Below are positions 1-8,680 of a stretch of 8,680 nt of DNA, in pieces. The stretch is from a bacterium ADurb.Bin374. GTDB taxonomy: Bacteria > Riflebacteria > Ozemobacteria > Ozemobacterales > Ozemobacteraceae. The stretch lies in the NCBI GenBank assembly GCA_002068715.1, contig MWAR01000191.1:1-8680 (forward strand), read 5' to 3'. The first letter of the stretch is position 1, and each line of letters begins with the position of its first letter. Both the position numbers and the translations under genes were made by a program. Below the pieces are notes generated by a model that had not been told where the DNA came from, ran no database searches, and saw nothing but the letters and a program-made list of their open reading frames with translations.

Positions 1-73
1 TCGGGGCGACTGGACTCGAACCAGCGGCCCTCTGGTCCCAAACCAGATGCGCTACCAACTGCGCCACGCCCCG
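1..73 (-). tRNA. tRNA-Pro (anticodon UGG)
   Basis: Read on the minus strand this is a complete 73-nt cloverleaf. The 7-bp acceptor stem CGGGGCG pairs with CGCCCCG, followed by discriminator A at position 1. The D arm has GCGC pairs, the anticodon stem is TCTGG/CCAGA, and the T arm is GCTGG-TTCGAGT-CCAGT (one G-T wobble). The anticodon loop TTTGGGA places UGG at window positions 38-40, which reads proline codons. The window begins at the discriminator base, so it cannot be seen whether CCA is encoded. The gene is transcribed away from the HIT gene and has its own promoter just upstream. Confidence 0.96.
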
Positions 74-277: not shown

Positions 278-619
278 ATGGATACGTGTATTTTCTGCAG
301 GATTGCGAAGGGCGAGATCCCGGCCGACATCGTGTATCAGGATGCCGACGTGATCGTGTTTCGCGACCTTCATCCGCAGGCACCGGTTCACGTTCTCGCG
401 GTACCGCGCAAGCATATCGCGAGTCTCGTCGAAGCCGGCGCGGCCGATGGCCAGGTTCTGGCCCCGGTGTTCCGGAGCATCCAGCAGGTCGCCTCGAAAC
501 TCGGCCTTGAGCAGGGCTTCAGGGTCGTCACGAACCATGGTGAACACGGTGGACAATCGGTGGGTCACATCCATTTTCATGTTCTCGGCAAGCGGCAGAT
601 GCAGTGGCCGCCGGGTTGA
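278..619 (+). CDS. HIT-family (HinT-like) nucleotide-binding hydrolase
   Basis: This 113-residue protein has the normal length for a bacterial HinT-type protein. These cytosolic dimers hydrolyse purine nucleoside phosphoramidates and aminoacyl- or acyl-adenylates. The N-terminus carries the family signature DTCIFCRIAKGEIPA with C4 and C7, and xxPRKHI with H46 follows at residues 42-47. The catalytic histidine triad HIHFHVLG is at 97-104 (H97, H99, H101), preceded by N86 and GQSVGH as in HINT proteins. C4, C7 and the histidines could bind zinc as in some relatives. The start is fixed because family homology begins immediately after M1, even though no Shine-Dalgarno sequence is present. It ends 58 nt before rpsU and is probably co-transcribed with it. 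The exact substrate is unknown. Confidence 0.93.
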   Translation: MDTCIFCRIAKGEIPADIVYQDADVIVFRDLHPQAPVHVLAVPRKHIASLVEAGAADGQVLAPVFRSIQQVASKLGLEQGFRVVTNHGEHGGQSVGHIHFHVLGKRQMQWPPG

Positions 620-677
620 CGACAGAGAAACGATGTTCCCCTCGTGAAAACGAAGATAGGGAGGGGGGTGAAACGAT

Positions 678-860
678 ATGGCAGAAGTTCGAGTTCTGAA
701 GGATGAACCGTTGGAGAAAGCCCTGAAGCGCTTCCAGAAGAAGTGCCAGGAGGCCGGCATCATCAAGGAAATCAAGCGGCGGCGCGCCTACGAGAAGCCC
801 AGCGAGAAAGCGAAGCGCAAGGCGGCCGAAGCCCGGCGCAAGCAGCGGCGGCGGAAGTAA
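678..860 (+). CDS. rpsU: 30S ribosomal protein S21
   Basis: A 60-residue, strongly basic protein that is a clear S21 (bS21). It has the N-terminal VRVLKDEPLEKALKRFQKKC core, then GIIKEIKRRRAYEKPSEK and a lysine/arginine-rich tail ending RRKQRRRK. S21 is a small-subunit protein near the platform and the anti-Shine-Dalgarno region, and it assists initiation by base pairing. The ATG at 678 is preceded by a purine-rich ribosome-binding site (GGGAGGGGGG, about 659-668) with a 9-nt spacer. No separate promoter is visible in the 58-bp gap behind the HIT gene, so read-through from the HIT promoter is likely. The link to downstream nfeD and floA genes is a known conserved neighbourhood. Confidence 0.97.
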   Translation: MAEVRVLKDEPLEKALKRFQKKCQEAGIIKEIKRRRAYEKPSEKAKRKAAEARRKQRRRK

Positions 861-887
861 TCGACTACAAAAGTTGGGAAAAAAGAC

Positions 888-917
888 TTTACATATTTCA
901 GCGGCTTGTTATATAAT
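888..917 (+). promoter_or_regulatory. Promoter embedded at the 5' edge of the long nfeD gene
   Basis: TTTACA (888-893, five of six to TTGACA), an 18-bp spacer and a perfect TATAAT (912-917) lie in a short AT-rich patch just after rpsU. Initiation would fall near 924. The longest open frame of the nfeD gene starts at a TTG at 874, which would put this promoter inside its coding sequence. It is more likely that 861-920 is non-coding and that the protein starts downstream. Confidence 0.7.
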
Positions 918-924
918 TCAAGGC

Positions 925-2277
925 TTGGGACGGTTTTACCGTCTCGCGGGTTTGTTGTGCCTTCTTTTCATCGCGCTGACGTTCGCCGCCTTCCCGGCCA
1001 ATGCCCAGTCGGCAATATCGGGAAAAGGGGAAACCGTGCTCGTCGTGCCCATCACGGGCAATATCGACAGCGGGCTTTCCTTCTTCCTGCAGCGCATGAT
1101 TCGCCGCGCCGAGCGCGAGAACATCAAGGCGGTCATTCTCGAGGTCAACTCGAACGGCGGTCTCGTCGACGCGGCCCAGGAGATGAAAGACGCGCTCCTG
1201 CGAAGCGGCATCACGACCGTCGGGTACGTCAAGGGGCGGGCGCTCTCGGCGGCCGCTCTCATAACGATTTCCTGCCATCGCATTTTCATGGAGCCCGGCT
1301 CCGAGATGGGCGCCGCGACCCCGATCAAGATCATGGGCACCTCGATCCAGGCCGCCGAAGCCAAGTTCGTTTCGGCGTTCCGGGGCGAGTTCGAATCCGC
1401 CGCCGAAGCGCGAAAACGGCCGAAAACACTGGCCGCCTCGATGGTCGACAAGGAAGTCGACGCCATCCCCGGCCTCCGCAAGCGTGGCGAGATCCTCACC
1501 CTGACGAGCGAAAGCGCCCTCCAGCACGGGTTCTGCGATGCGGTCGTCACCTCGCTCGACGGAGTGCTGCGCCGTCTGAACCTCGAGCAGGCAACGATCG
1601 AGCGCGCCGAGCCGACCTCGGGCGAGAGAATCGCCCGCTGGCTAACGCACCCCAACGTCTCCGTCCTGCTGTTCACGATCGGCTTCTGGTGCCTGGTTCT
1701 CGAGTTTCTGGTGTTCGGCTGGGGCCTGCTGGGCTGGTTCGGCCTCGTCTGCTTCGCCCTTTTCTTCGGCGGCCACCTGTTCGCCTACATGGCGGGCTTC
1801 GAAGCCGTCCTGTTGTTCGGCATCGGCCTTCTGCTGCTCCTGGCTGAAATTTTCATCATTCCCGGCTTCGGCATCACCGGCATTGCCGGCATCGGCGCGA
1901 TGTGCGCCGGCCTGGTGATCACGTTCGGCGGAATATATACCGCTGTATATTCAATTGCGAAAATCATGGCCCTGTCGATCGTGATGATCGTCGTGCTCTA
2001 CAATCTCGGGCCAAAACTGAAACTGTTCGACCGGTTCGTGCTCAAGGAAGCGATGACGACCGAAGCCGGCTTCGTGGCTGTCGACGGCCACGCGTTCGAC
2101 AAGCTTCTCCACATGGAAGGCACGACGGTTTCGACGTGCCGACCGGCCGGCATCGTCCGGATCGGCCCCGACAAATTCGACGTGACATCCGACGGCGAGT
2201 TCATCGAGCGGGGAAAGCCGATCACGGTCATCGCCGTCGAGGGCACGAAGATCGTCGTCCGGGAAGTAAAGGGATAA
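925..2277 (+). CDS. Long NfeD protein: secreted-side ClpP-class serine protease with membrane and OB domains
   Basis: This belongs to the NfeD1b family (B. subtilis YqeZ-like), membrane proteases that accompany flotillins. From the chosen start the protein has 450 residues. Residues 1-27 form a signal peptide (arginines at 3 and 6, hydrophobic core, AxA site before Q28). A ClpP-class domain spans about 38-218, including NSNGGLVDAA at 75-84, the nucleophile Ser108 in ALSAAAL, and Lys147, placed like the lysine of the archaeal NfeD Ser/Lys dyad. About five membrane segments run from 245 to 360, including the hallmark IIPGFGITGIAG. An NfeD OB-fold occupies about 379-450. The start is uncertain. 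The frame is open from a TTG at 874, but that stretch is AT-rich, has no ribosome-binding site and contains a strong promoter. The TTG at 925 begins a normal signal peptide. Its stop overlaps the next gene's ribosome-binding site. Confidence 0.9.
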   Translation: MGRFYRLAGLLCLLFIALTFAAFPANAQSAISGKGETVLVVPITGNIDSGLSFFLQRMIRRAERENIKAVILEVNSNGGLVDAAQEMKDALLRSGITTVGYVKGRALSAAALITISCHRIFMEPGSEMGAATPIKIMGTSIQAAEAKFVSAFRGEFESAAEARKRPKTLAASMVDKEVDAIPGLRKRGEILTLTSESALQHGFCDAVVTSLDGVLRRLNLEQATIERAEPTSGERIARWLTHPNVSVLLFTIGFWCLVLEFLVFGWGLLGWFGLVCFALFFGGHLFAYMAGFEAVLLFGIGLLLLLAEIFIIPGFGITGIAGIGAMCAGLVITFGGIYTAVYSIAKIMALSIVMIVVLYNLGPKLKLFDRFVLKEAMTTEAGFVAVDGHAFDKLLHMEGTTVSTCRPAGIVRIGPDKFDVTSDGEFIERGKPITVIAVEGTKIVVREVKG

Positions 2278-2288
2278 GGAACCTCCTC

Positions 2289-3026
2289 ATGCGGAACATG
2301 CTGCCTGTCTTCTCGTTTTTGCTTCTGCTGGCCTGCTTTTTCGCGACTCCGGCAGTCATGGCGCAGGAAATGTCCGGCGAAGAGCTCCTTCCGCGGCTTT
2401 CATCGGGCACGACCGATTCCGGCAGGCAGCCCGAAGCCGCTCCGACCGGCACCTCGGATGAACCGGCCGGAACGGGAAAGCCAGCGGAAACGCCCGCTCC
2501 GGGTGAACCGGGGGCCGTCTCCTACAGCATGGTCGTGCTAGCCATGCTGATCGGCGGTCTGCTCCTGCTGTTCATCGAAGTGGCGCTGATTCCCGGTTTC
2601 GGAATCACCGGCGTCACGGGCATCATCGCGATTTTTGCCGGCCTCGGCCTCGCCTTCTGGAAACTCGACATCCGGCTGGCCGTCCTGTACTCGTTCGGCT
2701 CGATGGCGGCCCTCGTGGGCTTGGTTCTCTGGGCGATTTATATCTTCCCACATACCAGCATCGGGAAAAAGTTCGTCCTGAACGCGAAGATCTCCGTCGA
2801 GGACGGATTCACGGCGATCCGCGACCTCGAACGATTCGTCGGCATGGAAGGCGTTGCCACGAGCGACCTTCGCCCTTCAGGCATCGCCCGCATCGGCGAC
2901 GAGCGCATGGACGTGCTGTCGGACGGCGAGTTCGTTCCGCGCCAGAGCAAAATCAAAGTTCTGCGCGTGAAAGAAGGGGCGCTCATCGTGGCAATGATCG
3001 AACCTCCTCCCCCAGGCAACGCCTGA
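2289..3026 (+). CDS. Short NfeD protein (membrane plus OB domain, no protease)
   Basis: A 245-residue NfeD-family protein without the ClpP-class protease domain. Residues 1-25 are a signal peptide or first membrane segment (LPVFSFLLLLACFFATPAVMA). Residues about 40-78 form a Pro/Thr/Gly/Glu-rich linker. Membrane helices run from about 80 to 154 and contain the family hallmark LLLLFIEVALIPGFGITGVTG. An OB-fold domain spans about 165-238 with LRPSGIARIG and DVLSDGEFV. The membrane and OB parts align well with the upstream long NfeD, so the two are paralogues. NfeD OB domains are thought to contact flotillins. The ATG at 2289 has AAGGA (2276-2280) eight bases upstream; an ATG three codons later is an alternative. 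The open frame extends back to 1902, but that part is a shadow of the long NfeD gene. It is probably translationally linked to its neighbours. Confidence 0.9.
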   Translation: MRNMLPVFSFLLLLACFFATPAVMAQEMSGEELLPRLSSGTTDSGRQPEAAPTGTSDEPAGTGKPAETPAPGEPGAVSYSMVVLAMLIGGLLLLFIEVALIPGFGITGVTGIIAIFAGLGLAFWKLDIRLAVLYSFGSMAALVGLVLWAIYIFPHTSIGKKFVLNAKISVEDGFTAIRDLERFVGMEGVATSDLRPSGIARIGDERMDVLSDGEFVPRQSKIKVLRVKEGALIVAMIEPPPPGNA

Positions 3027-3038
3027 CGAGGGCTTTCA

Positions 3039-3431
3039 GTGGACTTTTCCGCGTATCTCCCCCTGATTGGCTTTCTGATCCTTGTCCTTGTCGTCAACTG
3101 GGTCGTGCCGGTCATCCTGCTGATCCGGGCCCGCTGGACAGGACTCGAACTCGACCCGTTCAGCTTGATCGGCATGCGATTGCGGAACGTGCCGCCGCAC
3201 CTGATCGTAGGATCCGCGATTGCAGCCTCCCGCGGGGGCATTCCCATCAGCATGAATGAGCTGGAAGCTCATCACTTGGCAGGCGGCAATCCGGCGAGGG
3301 TCGTTCGGGCTCTTCTGATGGCAAAGGAGGCCGGAAGCTCGTTGAATTTCAGTCAGGCGGCGGCGATCGACCTCTCGGGACGTGACGTCCTGGAGTATTG
3401 CAGGTCCCTTCCGAAAAAGAAGGAACGCTAA
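3039..3431 (+). CDS. Stand-alone N-terminal FloA-like protein (no SPFH or coiled-coil domain)
   Basis: A 130-residue protein that corresponds to only the first about 120 residues of a FloA flotillin. It has a hydrophobic membrane segment (about 7-29), then a soluble region with FSLIGMRLR (42-50), LAGGN (80-84), LNFSQAAAIDL (102-112) and GRDVLE (114-119). Against the full FloA encoded at 4286-5266 it aligns without a gap over residues 1-120, with 45 identities in positions 41-120 by hand count. It then ends in a basic tail (KKKER) where FloA continues into its SPFH region. The GTG start has GAGGG six to seven bases upstream, 12 bp after the short nfeD stop. The intact start, ribosome-binding site and conserved residues argue for a functional gene rather than a decayed floA. 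Its function is unknown; it may cap or modulate FloA assemblies. Confidence 0.88.
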   Translation: MDFSAYLPLIGFLILVLVVNWVVPVILLIRARWTGLELDPFSLIGMRLRNVPPHLIVGSAIAASRGGIPISMNELEAHHLAGGNPARVVRALLMAKEAGSSLNFSQAAAIDLSGRDVLEYCRSLPKKKER

Positions 3432-3443
3432 CCGGTCAGAGCG

Positions 3444-4181
3444 TCATTTTCCCCAAGGCATCCGAAGGATTTCCGGTGAAATGGGCTTCACGACGCCGGG
3501 AAGTGGCACGGCCAAAAGAGAGCGAACACGCTTGTTTCGTTCGATTGCCCGGGCCTGAAATCTCGTACAAACCTTTTCCTGGCTGAACGCCTCGTTCCGT
3601 TGGCACAAGCCTTCCCAGTCGGTGTCTTCGCGGATCTCGAATCCGCAGAGAGGCCAGATCAGACGTGCATATTCGGCAATCGGCTCAACATCCGTCAACA
3701 GATTCAATTTTCCGTTTCGGGCGAGAAGAGTTCGGTATCGAGCAAGAAATGTCGGTGCAATCAGCATTTTTCCGGGTTTCCGCAGGTAGGGAGTGGGAAA
3801 CGTAACCCAAATTTCATCGAGTTCTCCCGGCGCAAACAACTTCTCCAGCAGTTCGCCCTCGACCCGGATGAATCCGACATTGTTCAGTTTTTCTTCCAGT
3901 GCCGACCTGGCGCCATGCCAAATCCTGCCGCCCTTGACGTCCAGACCGAGCACATTGAAGGCGGGATAGATCCTGGCGAGACCGAGCGAGAAATCGCCCC
4001 AGCCGCAGCCCATTTCAAGAATCAGCGGCGCCGGTCGTCGAAAAAACGCGTCGTTCCACTTCCCGGCACGTTCGAACGGGGTTTCCAGCAGTTCCCGTAT
4101 CGGGGGTTCGAATAAATTGGGAAATGCGGCAAGCTGCCTGTATCGCTCGAGTTTCGGAACGCGCATGGGTCGTGGGGTCAC
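3444..4181 (-). CDS. TrmB-like tRNA (guanine-N7)-methyltransferase, divergent
   Basis: A 245-residue class I SAM-dependent methyltransferase of the TrmB family, which makes m7G46 in tRNA variable loops. Visible features are FPNLF (20-24), the SAM loop EMGCGWG (56-62), GLDVKGGR with the acidic D81 (79-86), the family stretch DEIWVTFPTP (122-131), LTD at 162-164, and the C-terminal region CTRFQARAIERNKRVRSL. The usual FPDPW-type motif is FPTPY here. Threonine 130 replaces the conserved aspartate and the following Lys/Arg/His cluster is altered, so activity or specificity may differ. The GTG at 4181 gives the longest form. An ATG at 4166 (240 residues) is preceded by AAGGTGA and is a good alternative. 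The gene is convergent with the FloA-like gene (12 bp between stops) and divergent from floA. No terminator is seen in the convergent gap. Confidence 0.82.
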   Translation of the reverse strand: MTPRPMRVPKLERYRQLAAFPNLFEPPIRELLETPFERAGKWNDAFFRRPAPLILEMGCGWGDFSLGLARIYPAFNVLGLDVKGGRIWHGARSALEEKLNNVGFIRVEGELLEKLFAPGELDEIWVTFPTPYLRKPGKMLIAPTFLARYRTLLARNGKLNLLTDVEPIAEYARLIWPLCGFEIREDTDWEGLCQRNEAFSQEKVCTRFQARAIERNKRVRSLLAVPLPGVVKPISPEILRMPWGK

Positions 4182-4188
4182 CTTGTTC

Positions 4189-4217
4189 TTGACTTTGATC
4201 GGGGTTTCCCGGATTAT
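4189..4217 (+). promoter_or_regulatory. Promoter for floA
   Basis: TTGACT (4189-4194), a 17-bp spacer and GATTAT (4212-4217, four of six) form a plausible sigma-70-type promoter. The start would be near 4224, leaving a leader of about 62 nt. Because the trmB-like gene separates floA from the nfeD genes on the opposite strand, floA needs its own promoter, and this is the best candidate in the 104-bp gap. Confidence 0.5.
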
Positions 4218-4218
4218 A
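4213..4218 (-). promoter_or_regulatory. -10 box for the trmB-like gene
   Basis: On the minus strand these bases read TATAAT, a perfect -10 box. Transcription would begin near 4206, giving a leader of about 25 nt to the GTG at 4181. No good -35 box lies 16-18 bp upstream, so the promoter may be weak or need an activator. It overlaps the plus-strand floA promoter. Confidence 0.45.
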
Positions 4219-4285
4219 GAATAAAATGGGCCGGTACATGCCGGGCAGCGTGAAAATTCGTGCGTCGATCTGAAGGAGGCGTTCC

Positions 4286-5266
4286 GTGGAAGGCTTCGTC
4301 GTATTGATCATCATCGGTGGTCTGATCGGTTTCTTCGTTCTCACCTATTTCGTTCCGGTCGGACTCTGGGTCAGCGCTCTCGCGTCGGGCGTCCCGGTCG
4401 GCCTGTTCGACCTGATCGGCATGCGGCTTCGCGGCGTCTCCCCGTATCAGATCATCAACCCGGCCATCACGGCGTTCAAGGGCGGTCTCGACGTGGCCCT
4501 GCAAGCGCTCGAATCGCACTACCTCGCCGGCGGCAACGTCCAGAAAGTCGTTTCAGCCCTCATTTCGGCGCAACGCGCCGGCATTCCGCTGAACTTCAAA
4601 CAGGCCACGGCGATCGATCTGGCCGGCCGTGACGTGCTCGACGCCGTCCGCAACTGCGTGAAACCGAAGGTCATCACGACCCCCGAAGTCTCGGCCATGG
4701 CGAAGAACGGCATCCAGGTCAAGGCCATCGCCCGCATCACCGTGAAAACCGACATCAACAAGCTGATCGGCGGCGCCACCGAAGAGACGATCCTGGCCCG
4801 CGTCGGCGAAGGCATCGTCACCACGATCGGCTCGGCTGAGTCGCACAAGGAAATCCTCGAGAATCCTGACCGCATCTCCAAGACGGTCCAGGAAAAGGGC
4901 CTCGATGCGAAAACGGCGTTCGAGATCCTTTCGATCGACATCGCCGACGTCGACATCGGCAGCAACATCGGCGCCAAGCTCCAGATCGACCAGGCCGAGG
5001 CCGACATGAAGATCGCCCAGGCAAAGGCCGCCGAACGCCGCGCCATCGCCGAGGCCAAGGAGCAGGAAATGCGCGCCCTCGAGCAGGAGATGCGCGCGAA
5101 GCTCGTCGAGTCCGAGGCGCAGGTTCCACAGGCCGTCGCATCGGCGCTGTCTGACGGCAACATCGGTATTCTCGATTATTATACTCTGAAGAATATCAAC
5201 TCCGACACCGAGATGCGAAAGTCCTTCTCGCAGATGGTCGACGTGCCGGTCATCCCCAACAAGTAA
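4286..5266 (+). CDS. floA: Flotillin-like protein FloA
   Basis: A 326-residue protein of the FloA (UPF0365) family, close to the usual length of about 330. FloA is a membrane-anchored scaffold that forms oligomers in functional membrane microdomains and organises membrane protein complexes. A membrane-inserted hairpin or helix is at about 4-31. A conserved N-terminal region follows with [13 protein letters not shown] (41-53), LAGGN (80-84) and DLAGRDVLD (111-119). An SPFH-type domain spans about 128-230. An Ala/Glu/Arg-rich coiled coil runs through about 232-282 ([19 protein letters not shown] and on), and the conserved tail contains [21 protein letters not shown]. The GTG start is fixed by a strong AAGGAGG (4273-4279) six bases upstream and by homology from residue 1. 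It leads a three-gene operon with the genes at 5284 and 5943. Confidence 0.97.
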
Positions 5267-5283
5267 GCGGAGAGCGCTGAAAC

Positions 5284-5916
5284 GTGGAAGCGTTTTTCCA
5301 GGTCGTCATCTTCCTGGTGATCGTCGTCGCCTCGGTCTGGTCGGAAATGAGCAAGAACAAGTCGAGCGGCAGTTCTGACGCCGAGTTCGGCGACCTCACG
5401 GCAATCGATGACTTCTTCAAGCAGCAGGAAAAGGCCCAGAAATCGTCTCAGCAGCGACCTTTGTCGGGCGGCTTCGATGACGACGTCGTTTCCCTCGAAC
5501 GGACACCGGCCCCGAGCGAGGTGTTCGGAACCCCTCAGAAAGTTCAGCCCCAGCCCGCGAGGCAGAAGCGCTTTGACAAGAAGGAGAAAAAGCGGGGCCA
5601 GGGCAAAGGCCGCGCTGCCTTCGATCAGGGCGGCCGCGCGCTTCCGCCGCTTCCACCCGTGTCGTCACATTTCGGCAGCGCCGAGAGCGATGAAGGGCCG
5701 TGTCTCGACGAGGCGCCGTCGCTGACCGGACGCGGGAGTTACGAGCGCGACGGCTTTGCCATCGCCCGCACCGCCTCGACCACGACCGTCACCACCCGCC
5801 GGCCCGCGAGGCGCTGGTCGCGGCAACAGCTCATCAATGCGATCGTCATTTCGGAGCTCATGAACCGGTATGACGTAAACCGCGTATACGGCCGCATTCC
5901 CGACCGGCGAAGCTGA
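5284..5916 (+). CDS. Membrane-anchored hypothetical protein with compact C-terminal motif
   Basis: A 210-residue protein of no family I can name with certainty. Residues 3-20 form one membrane anchor (FFQVVIFLVIVVASVWS). Residues about 22-175 look disordered, being rich in Gln, Ser, Pro, Lys and Gly, with an acidic patch at 65-67 and a basic run KRFDKKEKKRGQGKGR at 95-110. The last about 33 residues are compact and probably helical (WSRQQLINAIVISELMNRY, 178-196). They recall a short C-terminal helix of the AI-x-SEI/L type that I remember from small proteins coded beside flotillin genes; this is recollection, not a search. It starts 17 bp after floA at a GTG, with GGAG (5269-5272) upstream. 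An anchor-linker-hook layout suggests a tethering partner of FloA or of the next gene's product. That is an inference. Confidence 0.8.
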   Translation: MEAFFQVVIFLVIVVASVWSEMSKNKSSGSSDAEFGDLTAIDDFFKQQEKAQKSSQQRPLSGGFDDDVVSLERTPAPSEVFGTPQKVQPQPARQKRFDKKEKKRGQGKGRAAFDQGGRALPPLPPVSSHFGSAESDEGPCLDEAPSLTGRGSYERDGFAIARTASTTTVTTRRPARRWSRQQLINAIVISELMNRYDVNRVYGRIPDRRS

Positions 5917-5918
5917 GA

Positions 5919-5937
5919 CAAGATCGACGAGATCTTG
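5919..5937 (+). promoter_or_regulatory. Perfect hairpin in the gap between the 210-residue gene and the acyltransferase-like gene
   Basis: CAAGATC-GACGA-GATCTTG is a perfect 7-bp inverted repeat with a 5-nt loop. It starts two bases after the TGA at 5914-5916 and ends five bases before the ATG at 5943. It fills the ribosome-binding-site position of the next gene, and no clear Shine-Dalgarno sequence is otherwise seen. No T-run follows, so it is not a standard terminator. It may limit translation of the downstream gene, mark an RNA processing site or bind a protein. Confidence 0.55.
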
Positions 5938-5942
5938 CCCAG

Positions 5943-6638
5943 ATGGAATTCATCGACCACTTCAGACGCGCCAGACGTTCCTTCCGGGGCCTGCTCGCCG
6001 CGTTCGACCTGACGGTCCGGTTCGGCGGTTATGCGCATGCCGCCGCGGAGTCCGGACCGGCCGTGATTCTCATTCACGGAAGTGAGCTCATCGCCCAGGC
6101 ACTGTTGACGGCGTATTATCCCCGCCCCTTCCAGGCCGTCGTCAGTCTCTCCATCTGGAAAAAGCCCATTCTCCGCGCCCTGGCTTCGCGTCTCGGGTTT
6201 CTCAACCTGCCGCGACGCAACGGCGGCTGGCTGAGCTGGATACGAGCGGCCCTGAACGTGCTGCAGTCCGGCGGCCGGATCGCCCTGTTCGTTCCTTCCG
6301 ATTTCGCGTCTTCGAACAAGCCTGCCGCCGAATTCGGCATTGCGGCAATGCTCTGCCGTCTCACCGGATGCGCGTTCGTTCCGGTTGCAACGGACGGGTG
6401 TGACCGGGTGCTGCCCCCGGGCTGTTTTCTGCCGCGAGTCCGGCCTCTCCGGATGCTGATCGGCAAACCGATCAAGCCTCGCGTCGAGACCGCGGTATCG
6501 AATAGAAACCGTGACTGGGCGACGATGTTCCGGACGGATTTGTCGATACTTCAACAGCGGCTTCTGGCCTGTCCGGAAGGCGTACCGGGTGAACATTGCA
6601 GTATTGTTCAGCCGCTTCCCAAGGCGTCTCAGGAATAA
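5943..6638 (+). CDS. PlsC-like (lysophospholipid) acyltransferase homologue with degenerate active site
   Basis: A 231-residue protein whose plan matches the PlsC/LPLAT acyltransferase fold. The block AVILIHGSELIAQALL (40-55) sits at motif I. VSLSIWKKPILRALASRLGFL (67-87) resembles the segment after it. ALNVLQSGGRIALFVPSDFASS (103-124) sits at motif III. AEFGIAAMLCRLTGCAFVPVA (129-149) and the LIGKPIKP block (172-179) match the later motifs. The catalytic signature NHxxxxD is reduced to IHGSELI: His45 remains but the aspartate position is Ile50. FPEG is replaced by VPSD (117-120). Normal acyl transfer is therefore doubtful; it may bind lipid or act as a pseudoenzyme. The ATG start follows a hairpin and has no clear ribosome-binding site. 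Its place behind floA suggests a membrane-lipid role. The family call is by pattern recognition only. Confidence 0.7.
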   Translation: MEFIDHFRRARRSFRGLLAAFDLTVRFGGYAHAAAESGPAVILIHGSELIAQALLTAYYPRPFQAVVSLSIWKKPILRALASRLGFLNLPRRNGGWLSWIRAALNVLQSGGRIALFVPSDFASSNKPAAEFGIAAMLCRLTGCAFVPVATDGCDRVLPPGCFLPRVRPLRMLIGKPIKPRVETAVSNRNRDWATMFRTDLSILQQRLLACPEGVPGEHCSIVQPLPKASQE

Positions 6639-6670
6639 CGGCGCATCCGTCGAACCAACGCGCGGCTGAT

Positions 6671-6692
6671 TTGTGAATTTTTTATTTTTCAC
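6671..6692. repeat. AT-rich imperfect dyad downstream of the acyltransferase-like gene
   Basis: TTGTGAA (6671-6677) and TTCAC (6688-6692) flank a T-rich centre in an otherwise GC-rich gap. The sequence could form a weak 5-bp hairpin or serve as a binding site with widely spaced half-sites. No GC-rich stem followed by T-run was found, so a terminator for the floA operon is not evident. The rest of the 193-bp gap 6639-6831 holds the nifJ control elements. Confidence 0.3.
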
Positions 6693-6730
6693 GCCGGCAG
6701 GGGATTTTCAAACGTTCATGCGGATGCCAT

Positions 6731-6759
6731 GCCGGTCGCCGGGTTGACTTCTGACCGGC
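6731..6759. promoter_or_regulatory. Inverted repeat flanking the nifJ -35 box (possible operator)
   Basis: GCCGGTC (6731-6737) and GACCGGC (6753-6759) form a perfect 7-bp inverted repeat with a 15-bp spacer. The half-site centres are 22 bp apart, about two helical turns, so a dimeric regulator could contact both from one face. The -35 box of the nifJ promoter lies between the arms, which would favour repression. GC-rich chance repeats are common here, so the assignment is tentative. Confidence 0.45.
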
Positions 6760-6772
6760 CTCGGCCTATCAT
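6744..6772 (+). promoter_or_regulatory. Promoter for nifJ
   Basis: TTGACT (6744-6749), an exact 17-bp spacer and TATCAT (6767-6772) give five of six matches in each box. The predicted start is near 6779, leaving a leader of about 53 nt before the GTG at 6832. Confidence 0.75.
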
Positions 6773-6788
6773 TCACCCGTTTCAGGAA

Positions 6789-6808
6789 CGTGGGGGTACA
6801 TCCCCGCG
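6789..6808 (+). promoter_or_regulatory. Leader hairpin upstream of the nifJ ribosome-binding site
   Basis: In the predicted nifJ leader, CGTGGGG (6789-6795) pairs with CCCCGCG (6802-6808), seven pairs including one G-U, around a six-base loop GTACAT. It lies about 11 nt before the AGGAGGG ribosome-binding site at 6820-6826. No T-run follows, so a role in mRNA stability or translation is more likely than termination. Confidence 0.45.
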
Positions 6809-6831
6809 ACAACACATTCAGGAGGGACACC

Positions 6832-8680
<1,849 letters not shown>

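Follow-up and report, generated by a model that had tools for sequence, protein, structure and literature searches.

Why does a flotillin gene cut down to the membrane-proximal end of its protein stand directly behind two nfeD genes, and does it encode a working protein or debris? The question is raised by an 8,680-nucleotide stretch of DNA (contig MWAR01000191.1 of assembly GCA_002068715.1, bacterium ADurb.Bin374; the whole stretch is referred to here as the window), which encodes both NfeD and the flotillin-like protein FloA in a long and a short form. The short flotillin, FloA-short, is not obviously debris; judged from its sequence and predicted structure, it looks like a genuine protein consisting of the membrane-proximal module of FloA. 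Our reading, tentative and close to an even call, is that FloA-short is a functional, non-polymerising flotillin companion, made from the nfeD operon, that tunes FloA assemblies or carries the microdomain address. The genes and sites concerned are the following.

925..2277, plus strand: NfeD-long, NfeD1b type (ClpP-like domain, membrane domain and OB-fold; Pfam PF25145, PF24961, PF01957)
2289..3026, plus strand: NfeD-short, membrane part and OB-fold without the protease (PF24961, PF01957)
3039..3431, plus strand: FloA-short, 130 amino acids, predicted membrane helix and six-helix N-terminal module (PF12127, positions 6-117 of 314)
3444..4181, minus strand: trmB, tRNA (guanosine46-N7)-methyltransferase (NCBIfam NF001080, 150.3 bits against a cut-off of 132)
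4189..4222, plus strand: two overlapping promoter-like matches 5' of FloA-long (consensus matches only, 9/12 each)
4286..5266, plus strand: FloA-long, full-length flotillin-like FloA, 326 amino acids (PF12127, positions 2-312 of 314; NF010186)

A first-pass annotation had read the four NfeD and FloA genes in this order and on this strand, and the Pfam and NCBIfam matches and a second assembly of the species agree with it. FloA-short and FloA-long are 48% identical over 128 amino acids without a gap (E-value: 2e-35), and NfeD-short and NfeD-long are 39% identical over 141 amino acids. These values therefore reflect homology, chance resemblance being rejected for both alignments, and the long and short forms are paralogues, as had been claimed. 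NfeD-long begins at the TTG at 925 (the start chosen in the first-pass annotation) or nearby, in a frame that is open from 874. The gaps from NfeD-long to NfeD-short and from NfeD-short to FloA-short are 11 and 12 bases, respectively. The trmB gene, which had gone unmentioned, is intact, lies on the opposite strand between the two FloA genes and converges on FloA-short, with 12 bases between them. To judge from spacing, NfeD-long, NfeD-short and FloA-short look like one operon, and FloA-long looks like a separate unit because trmB splits the two FloA genes. Four promoter-like sites are found in 601-5400, against a mean of 0.9 in shuffled sequence. The short spacing, the position of trmB and the promoter-like matches of FloA-long together make FloA-short, and not FloA-long, the apparent end of the nfeD operon.

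The same arrangement is present in the second assembly (G001; Candidatus Ozemobacteraceae, isolate Go_SlDig_bin_287), so a one-off assembly error can be rejected. Its contig JAGOCE010000158.1 (L001, identical to L196) is 99.6% identical to window positions 2223-6957 (4735 bases), from NfeD-short to FloA-long, and its NfeD-long lies on an overlapping second contig (L197; 99.9% identity over window 927-2349). The spacer 5' of NfeD-long differs between the two strains (window 866-926, L197 3214-3242). In the window it has a promoter-like TTTACA-18-TATAAT (11/12); the L197 stretch is shorter and unrelated and does not contain this site.

FloA-long is a full member of its family (PF12127, 495.3 bits; NF010186, 502.1 bits against a cut-off of 393). 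FloA-short scores 107.9 bits against PF12127 (gathering score 34), over positions 6-117 of 314 only, and with 110.8 bits falls under the NF010186 equivalog cut-off of 393. Its AlphaFold2 model, built from an alignment of 44 sequences, is all helical with no strand (predicted local distance difference test, pLDDT, 93.7; predicted template modelling score, pTM, 0.81). The predicted helices are 3-22 (taken as the membrane helix), 25-33 and then a set of six (40-48, 53-65, 72-80, 85-97, 104-112 and 117-122). As described in part of a study of Staphylococcus aureus FloA (PMC11222466), that protein consists, in order, of one transmembrane segment, PHB subdomain 1 (six parallel helices), PHB subdomain 2 (a beta sheet) and a coiled coil; the maps are of 7.9-8.8 Å resolution and were partly fitted with predicted models. 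Set against this subdomain map, the model identifies FloA-short as the membrane helix and the whole of PHB subdomain 1, membrane insertion being a prediction. The cut falls at the junction of the helical subdomain and the SPFH part, and the SPFH part (PHB subdomain 2) and the coiled coil are missing.

The helical subdomain looks like a repeat of 32 residues in the N-terminal domain of FloA-long (window 4394-4663). In 49/49 full-length FloAs examined, the best self-match comes at a lag of 32 residues, and the same lag reaches significance in FloA-short (p 0.0002, shuffling). A run of basic residues directly follows the helical module in FloA-short (window 3405-3431) and in four other proteins with only the N-terminal part of FloA (L188, L192, P0122 and P0170), and ends or continues them; L095 and L102 have no such run.

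The main rival to the companion reading is decay in one species. FloA-short would then be the remnant of a tandem FloA duplicate that lost its 3' part as trmB moved in, tolerated but functionless. The neighbourhood lends this some colour: trmB starts just past FloA-short and is distant from the NfeD/FloA locus in the relatives where it was found (in G017 it is on the same contig as FloA genes, about 100 kb off), and the 130-amino-acid form is confined to one species in the collections searched. The branch leading to FloA-short is also long, and once other short forms are removed from the tree FloA-short joins its own FloA-long, weakly (46/84); the two as one clade are not rejected (approximately unbiased test, p-AU 0.281). 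The retained residues argue otherwise. Among 124 aligned columns (8 of them unclassed), FloA-short keeps 24/30 positions conserved both in the NfeD-linked clade (21 rows) and in 14 other FloAs, 4/16 positions specific to the NfeD-linked clade and 27/70 variable positions (Fisher p 0.00044 for 24/30 against 4/16). At the sequence level this is the pattern of selection on the fold and not of decay, because a copy of the neighbouring FloA decaying without constraint would have both kinds of position eroded alike; the missing clade-specific positions would also be accounted for by a split that predates the NfeD-linked clade. Furthermore, the frame is intact, the protein is identical in the second strain, the cut lies at a clean domain boundary, the predicted fold is a confident one and proteins with the same cut are conserved elsewhere. 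No remnant of a FloA C-terminal part above chance level is found in 3432-4285 by tblastn or blastn. We consider a relic unlikely.

The same cut recurs in the phylum. In a sample of 39 Riflebacteria genomes, for which assembly completeness is not established, 10 genes in nine genomes encode an N-terminal-only (N-only) FloA, with no SPFH part and a score above the PF12127 cut-off (G001, G009, G011, G012, G014, G017 with two, G022, G024 and G039). An eleventh candidate (G009 C60) is just under the cut-off and is left out of this count, as are two other fragments below it (G017 C41:111713 and G039 C95), frames that a contig end interrupts (G008 C53 and G018 C171), a broken copy (G009 C154) and a C-terminal FloA piece in G024 (C51). 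The last hints at a longer, fragmented FloA in G024 besides its N-only gene. In G009, G012 and G022 the N-only form has 162-179 amino acids and a variable tail rich in Lys and Glu. When the 11 N-only proteins are used as queries, at least 38 protein clusters of similar length (156-174 amino acids) are found among the matches listed (best 120 of 132); an alignment of 21 of the 38 groups them with the G012 protein in a single subfamily, and both their ends look complete, whereas some of the other 17 are from short contigs and may be cut. The 130-amino-acid form itself makes up a single 90%-identity cluster in the protein database (7 sequences from 4 contigs).

A second class of about 220 amino acids, which keeps the SPFH part and drops the coiled coil, is represented by six genes in five genomes (G009 with two, G012, G013, G017 and G034). 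G017 has tandem FloA genes of 222 and 325 amino acids (L178 4892-6638), on a contig other than that of its NfeD genes, with a weak FloA-like N-terminal fragment just 5' of the tandem. As a control, 299 Bacillota genomes (205 have FloA; completeness likewise not established) were sampled evenly across the phylum to which a Caldicoprobacter genome belongs and judged by per-genome summary rows; no intact N-only FloA was seen among them, divergent forms below the PF12127 cut-off being liable to escape. The four of these genomes with a second or weak match were inspected: one has two full-length genes, one a further copy that contains a stop, one a split copy and one a C-terminal piece at a contig start.

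In G011, G014 and G024, the N-only gene is placed between secG and the enolase gene (L184 3820-4209, L187 4758-5372 and L188 4866-5435; SecG was checked with Pfam in G024 and enolase in G011), with one further gene beside secG in G011 and G014. The L187 and L188 proteins have an insert of roughly 35-40 amino acids between helical repeats. FloA-short might belong with these three to an old N-only lineage whose task is separate from those of FloA-long and NfeD (in a Sec or membrane-protein pathway, for instance) and that moved into the nfeD operon here. A tree of the N-terminal domain (79 rows, 124 columns) does group FloA-short with the three secG-linked proteins (94/90), whose genes hold their place between secG and eno, and the remaining N-only genes are away from NfeD except in G039. 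The grouping is, however, below the support threshold of the tool and involves long branches, and FloA-short shifts to its own FloA-long once the other short forms are removed. In addition, G039 provides a second case beside NfeD and FloA. We consider such an origin quite unlikely.

The first-pass annotation had instead paired the short FloA with the short NfeD. NfeD-long is of the NfeD1b type, with a membrane domain, an OB-fold and a ClpP-like domain that aligns with the active site of PH1510 (PDB 2deo) and retains the predicted Ser/Lys dyad. Both columns are conserved in 16/16 aligned rows, that of the window included, and we take the aligned residues to be the catalytic Ser and Lys of PH1510. 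NfeD-short has the membrane segments and the OB-fold (PF24961, 26.6 bits against a cut-off of 26; PF01957, 43.6 against 29.1) and no Pfam match to a protease domain, as expected of a short NfeD. Its homologues number 144 at E<=1e-3, and some are 74-86% identical to the window's protein. NfeD-long matches that extend as far as the OB-fold are present in 24/39 genomes, distant partial matches (G028, G029, G030 and G032) and shorter NfeD matches being left out, and NfeD-short is present beside NfeD-long in 24/24, whether or not there is a FloA-short. A long and short NfeD pair is thus the normal state in these genomes.

FloA-short behaves differently. Loci with NfeD-short and FloA-long on one contig can be scored in 23 genomes, and in two of these (G001 and G039) a FloA-short lies between them. 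The 16 genomes dropped from the count are G005 (its contig ends after NfeD-short), G016 and G020 (NfeD-short and FloA on separate contigs), G017 (NfeD on C92, FloA on C41) and 12 with no match to NfeD-short or none to FloA (G021, G024-G028, G030 and G032-G036). In two of the 23 (G002, on C62, and G023) NfeD-short runs off the end of its contig, in G018 FloA-long is the gene that is cut, and the NfeD-short matches of G029 and G031 are weak. G039, a distant genome, has NfeD-long, NfeD-short, a FloA-short of 157 amino acids and FloA-long in order, and its relatives G037 and G038 are without FloA-short. The usual order in the family, read from loci that were fetched whole (for example L200, L202, L203, L205, L206, L208 and L209), is a HIT protein, ribosomal protein S21, NfeD-long, NfeD-short, FloA-long and a protein like the 210-amino-acid one of the window. 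G004 is scored as being without FloA-short. Its junction of NfeD-short and FloA-long, which in the window holds FloA-short and trmB, holds a gene for a 753-amino-acid protein (L201 5767-8025, minus strand) with a cNMP-binding domain, an AAA_31/ParA-type (ParA/MinD-type) ATPase domain and tetratricopeptide repeats.

Homologous loci lacking one short form as often as not had been named beforehand as evidence that would count against matched short forms, and this is the situation found, because 21/23 loci lack FloA-short between NfeD-short and FloA-long. Nor do the truncations mirror each other: NfeD-short keeps the FloA-binding OB-fold, and FloA-short is without the coiled coil at which the NfeD OB domain is placed in S. 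aureus (PMC11222466, the part describing the complex). Although the four genes adjoin here and in G039, it is very unlikely that short NfeD and short FloA act as a pair in mixed assemblies that dilute, cap or localise the long forms, given those 21 loci and the missing binding site. What stands of the earlier proposal is FloA-short as a membrane-proximal module, which looks genuine and is supported indirectly; its tie to NfeD does not stand, other short FloAs being located away from NfeD with the exception of G039. Without NfeD-short as the partner, the idea of dilution or capping may survive.

The companion reading is preferred because of the clean cut, the conservation pattern, the recurrence of the cut, the gene order in G039 and the placement between secG and enolase. 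From what is observed (the gene, its domain content, its conservation and the recurrence of the cut) we infer a membrane location, an operon, mixing with FloA-long and an effect on assembly, in the following way. FloA-short would be made from the nfeD operon as a standalone membrane anchor with a six-helix subdomain. It would probably share microdomains with FloA-long through its membrane helix and lipid-recognising helices. Missing the PHB beta strands, it would be unable to dimerise, and missing the coiled coil, it would neither polymerise nor be held by NfeD in the manner of FloA. It could thereby tune the size or composition of FloA assemblies, or bear the microdomain address alone. The S. 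aureus work (PMC11222466) reports that FloA variants without helices 1-2 of subdomain 1 no longer bind staphyloxanthin or localise to microdomains, and it assigns dimerisation to PHB-PHB contacts in the vicinity of beta strands 2 and 3.

Several points weigh against the companion reading. The 130-amino-acid form is known from one species only, and it sits on a long branch (1.24 in the 79-row tree and 2.71 in the one without other short forms). Of the 30 widely conserved positions, 13 to 20 are retained in six further N-only proteins, fewer than in FloA-short, so the N-only class is loosely constrained. Between the two strains the FloA-short gene shows a single synonymous difference, which is too little to gauge recent selection. 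Lipid recognition and microdomain localisation are carried over by analogy from S. aureus, a member of another phylum, and the mixing with FloA-long is something that we infer. More broadly, it is possible, if somewhat doubtful, that Riflebacteria use a family of natural "flotillin heads", each a membrane helix with the 32-residue-repeat helical subdomain of FloA, as proteins in their own right to mark or regulate membrane microdomains without the SPFH and coiled-coil scaffold. The role of the helical N-terminal subdomain of FloA, taken apart from the SPFH and coiled-coil parts, has been probed by artificial deletions. Natural genes for this subdomain only, which turn up in several genomes and in differing genomic contexts, are a ready-made tool for asking whether the subdomain can find a microdomain by itself and whether non-polymerising subunits tune flotillin assemblies.

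The remaining features of the window flank this locus.

1-73, minus strand: tRNA-Pro
Between tRNA-Pro and NfeD-long: a HIT protein gene, then a ribosomal protein S21 gene
5284..5916, plus strand: an unnamed 210-amino-acid protein, 3' of FloA-long, with no Pfam family above cut-off
3' of the 210-amino-acid gene: an unnamed 231-amino-acid protein, then the start of a pyruvate:ferredoxin-oxidoreductase-like gene

Homologues of the 210-amino-acid protein are directly 3' of the NfeD-linked FloA in 14 loci of other genomes (L199-L211 and L215). The last gene is presumably pyruvate:ferredoxin-oxidoreductase-like, a name taken from a reading of the sequence and not from a search; 42 in-frame bases of L196 (4736-4777) are absent from it in the window (at about 6957).

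In the open-access literature, no title among those listed names a natural N-terminal-only FloA, and full-text searches for Riflebacteria flotillin and for UPF0365/YqfA, judged by titles, give nothing on such genes. The word "truncated" does not occur in the main text of the study of SPFH and NfeD families by Hinderhofer (2009, PMC2636767), part of which is used here and in which SPFH5 (YqfA) is defined in an operon with a ClpP-type NfeD. Within the FloA/YqfA family (SPFH5, PF12127, NF010186), FloA-long is a full member; FloA-short shares with it the predicted membrane helix and six-helix subdomain and differs in being without the SPFH beta subdomain and the coiled coil. The NfeD1b-SPFH5 operon described there (B. 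subtilis YqeZ-YqfA) has a ClpP-type NfeD beside FloA, as here, but the phylum genomes examined have an extra short NfeD beside the long one, and in the window trmB splits off FloA-long and a short FloA closes the apparent operon. In the NfeD1a-SPFH1a.1-SPFH1a.2 tandem of the same source, two SPFH-family genes likewise follow one NfeD; there an SPFH1 member is replicated, whereas in the window one of the two FloA genes is reduced to the N-terminal module. Another close parallel is the set of laboratory deletion (PHB) variants of S. aureus FloA (PMC11222466, in the sections on these variants), which use the same subdomain boundaries to map lipid binding, dimerisation and multimerisation. Those variants are engineered, whereas FloA-short is a natural gene for what is predicted to be the membrane helix and subdomain 1 only.

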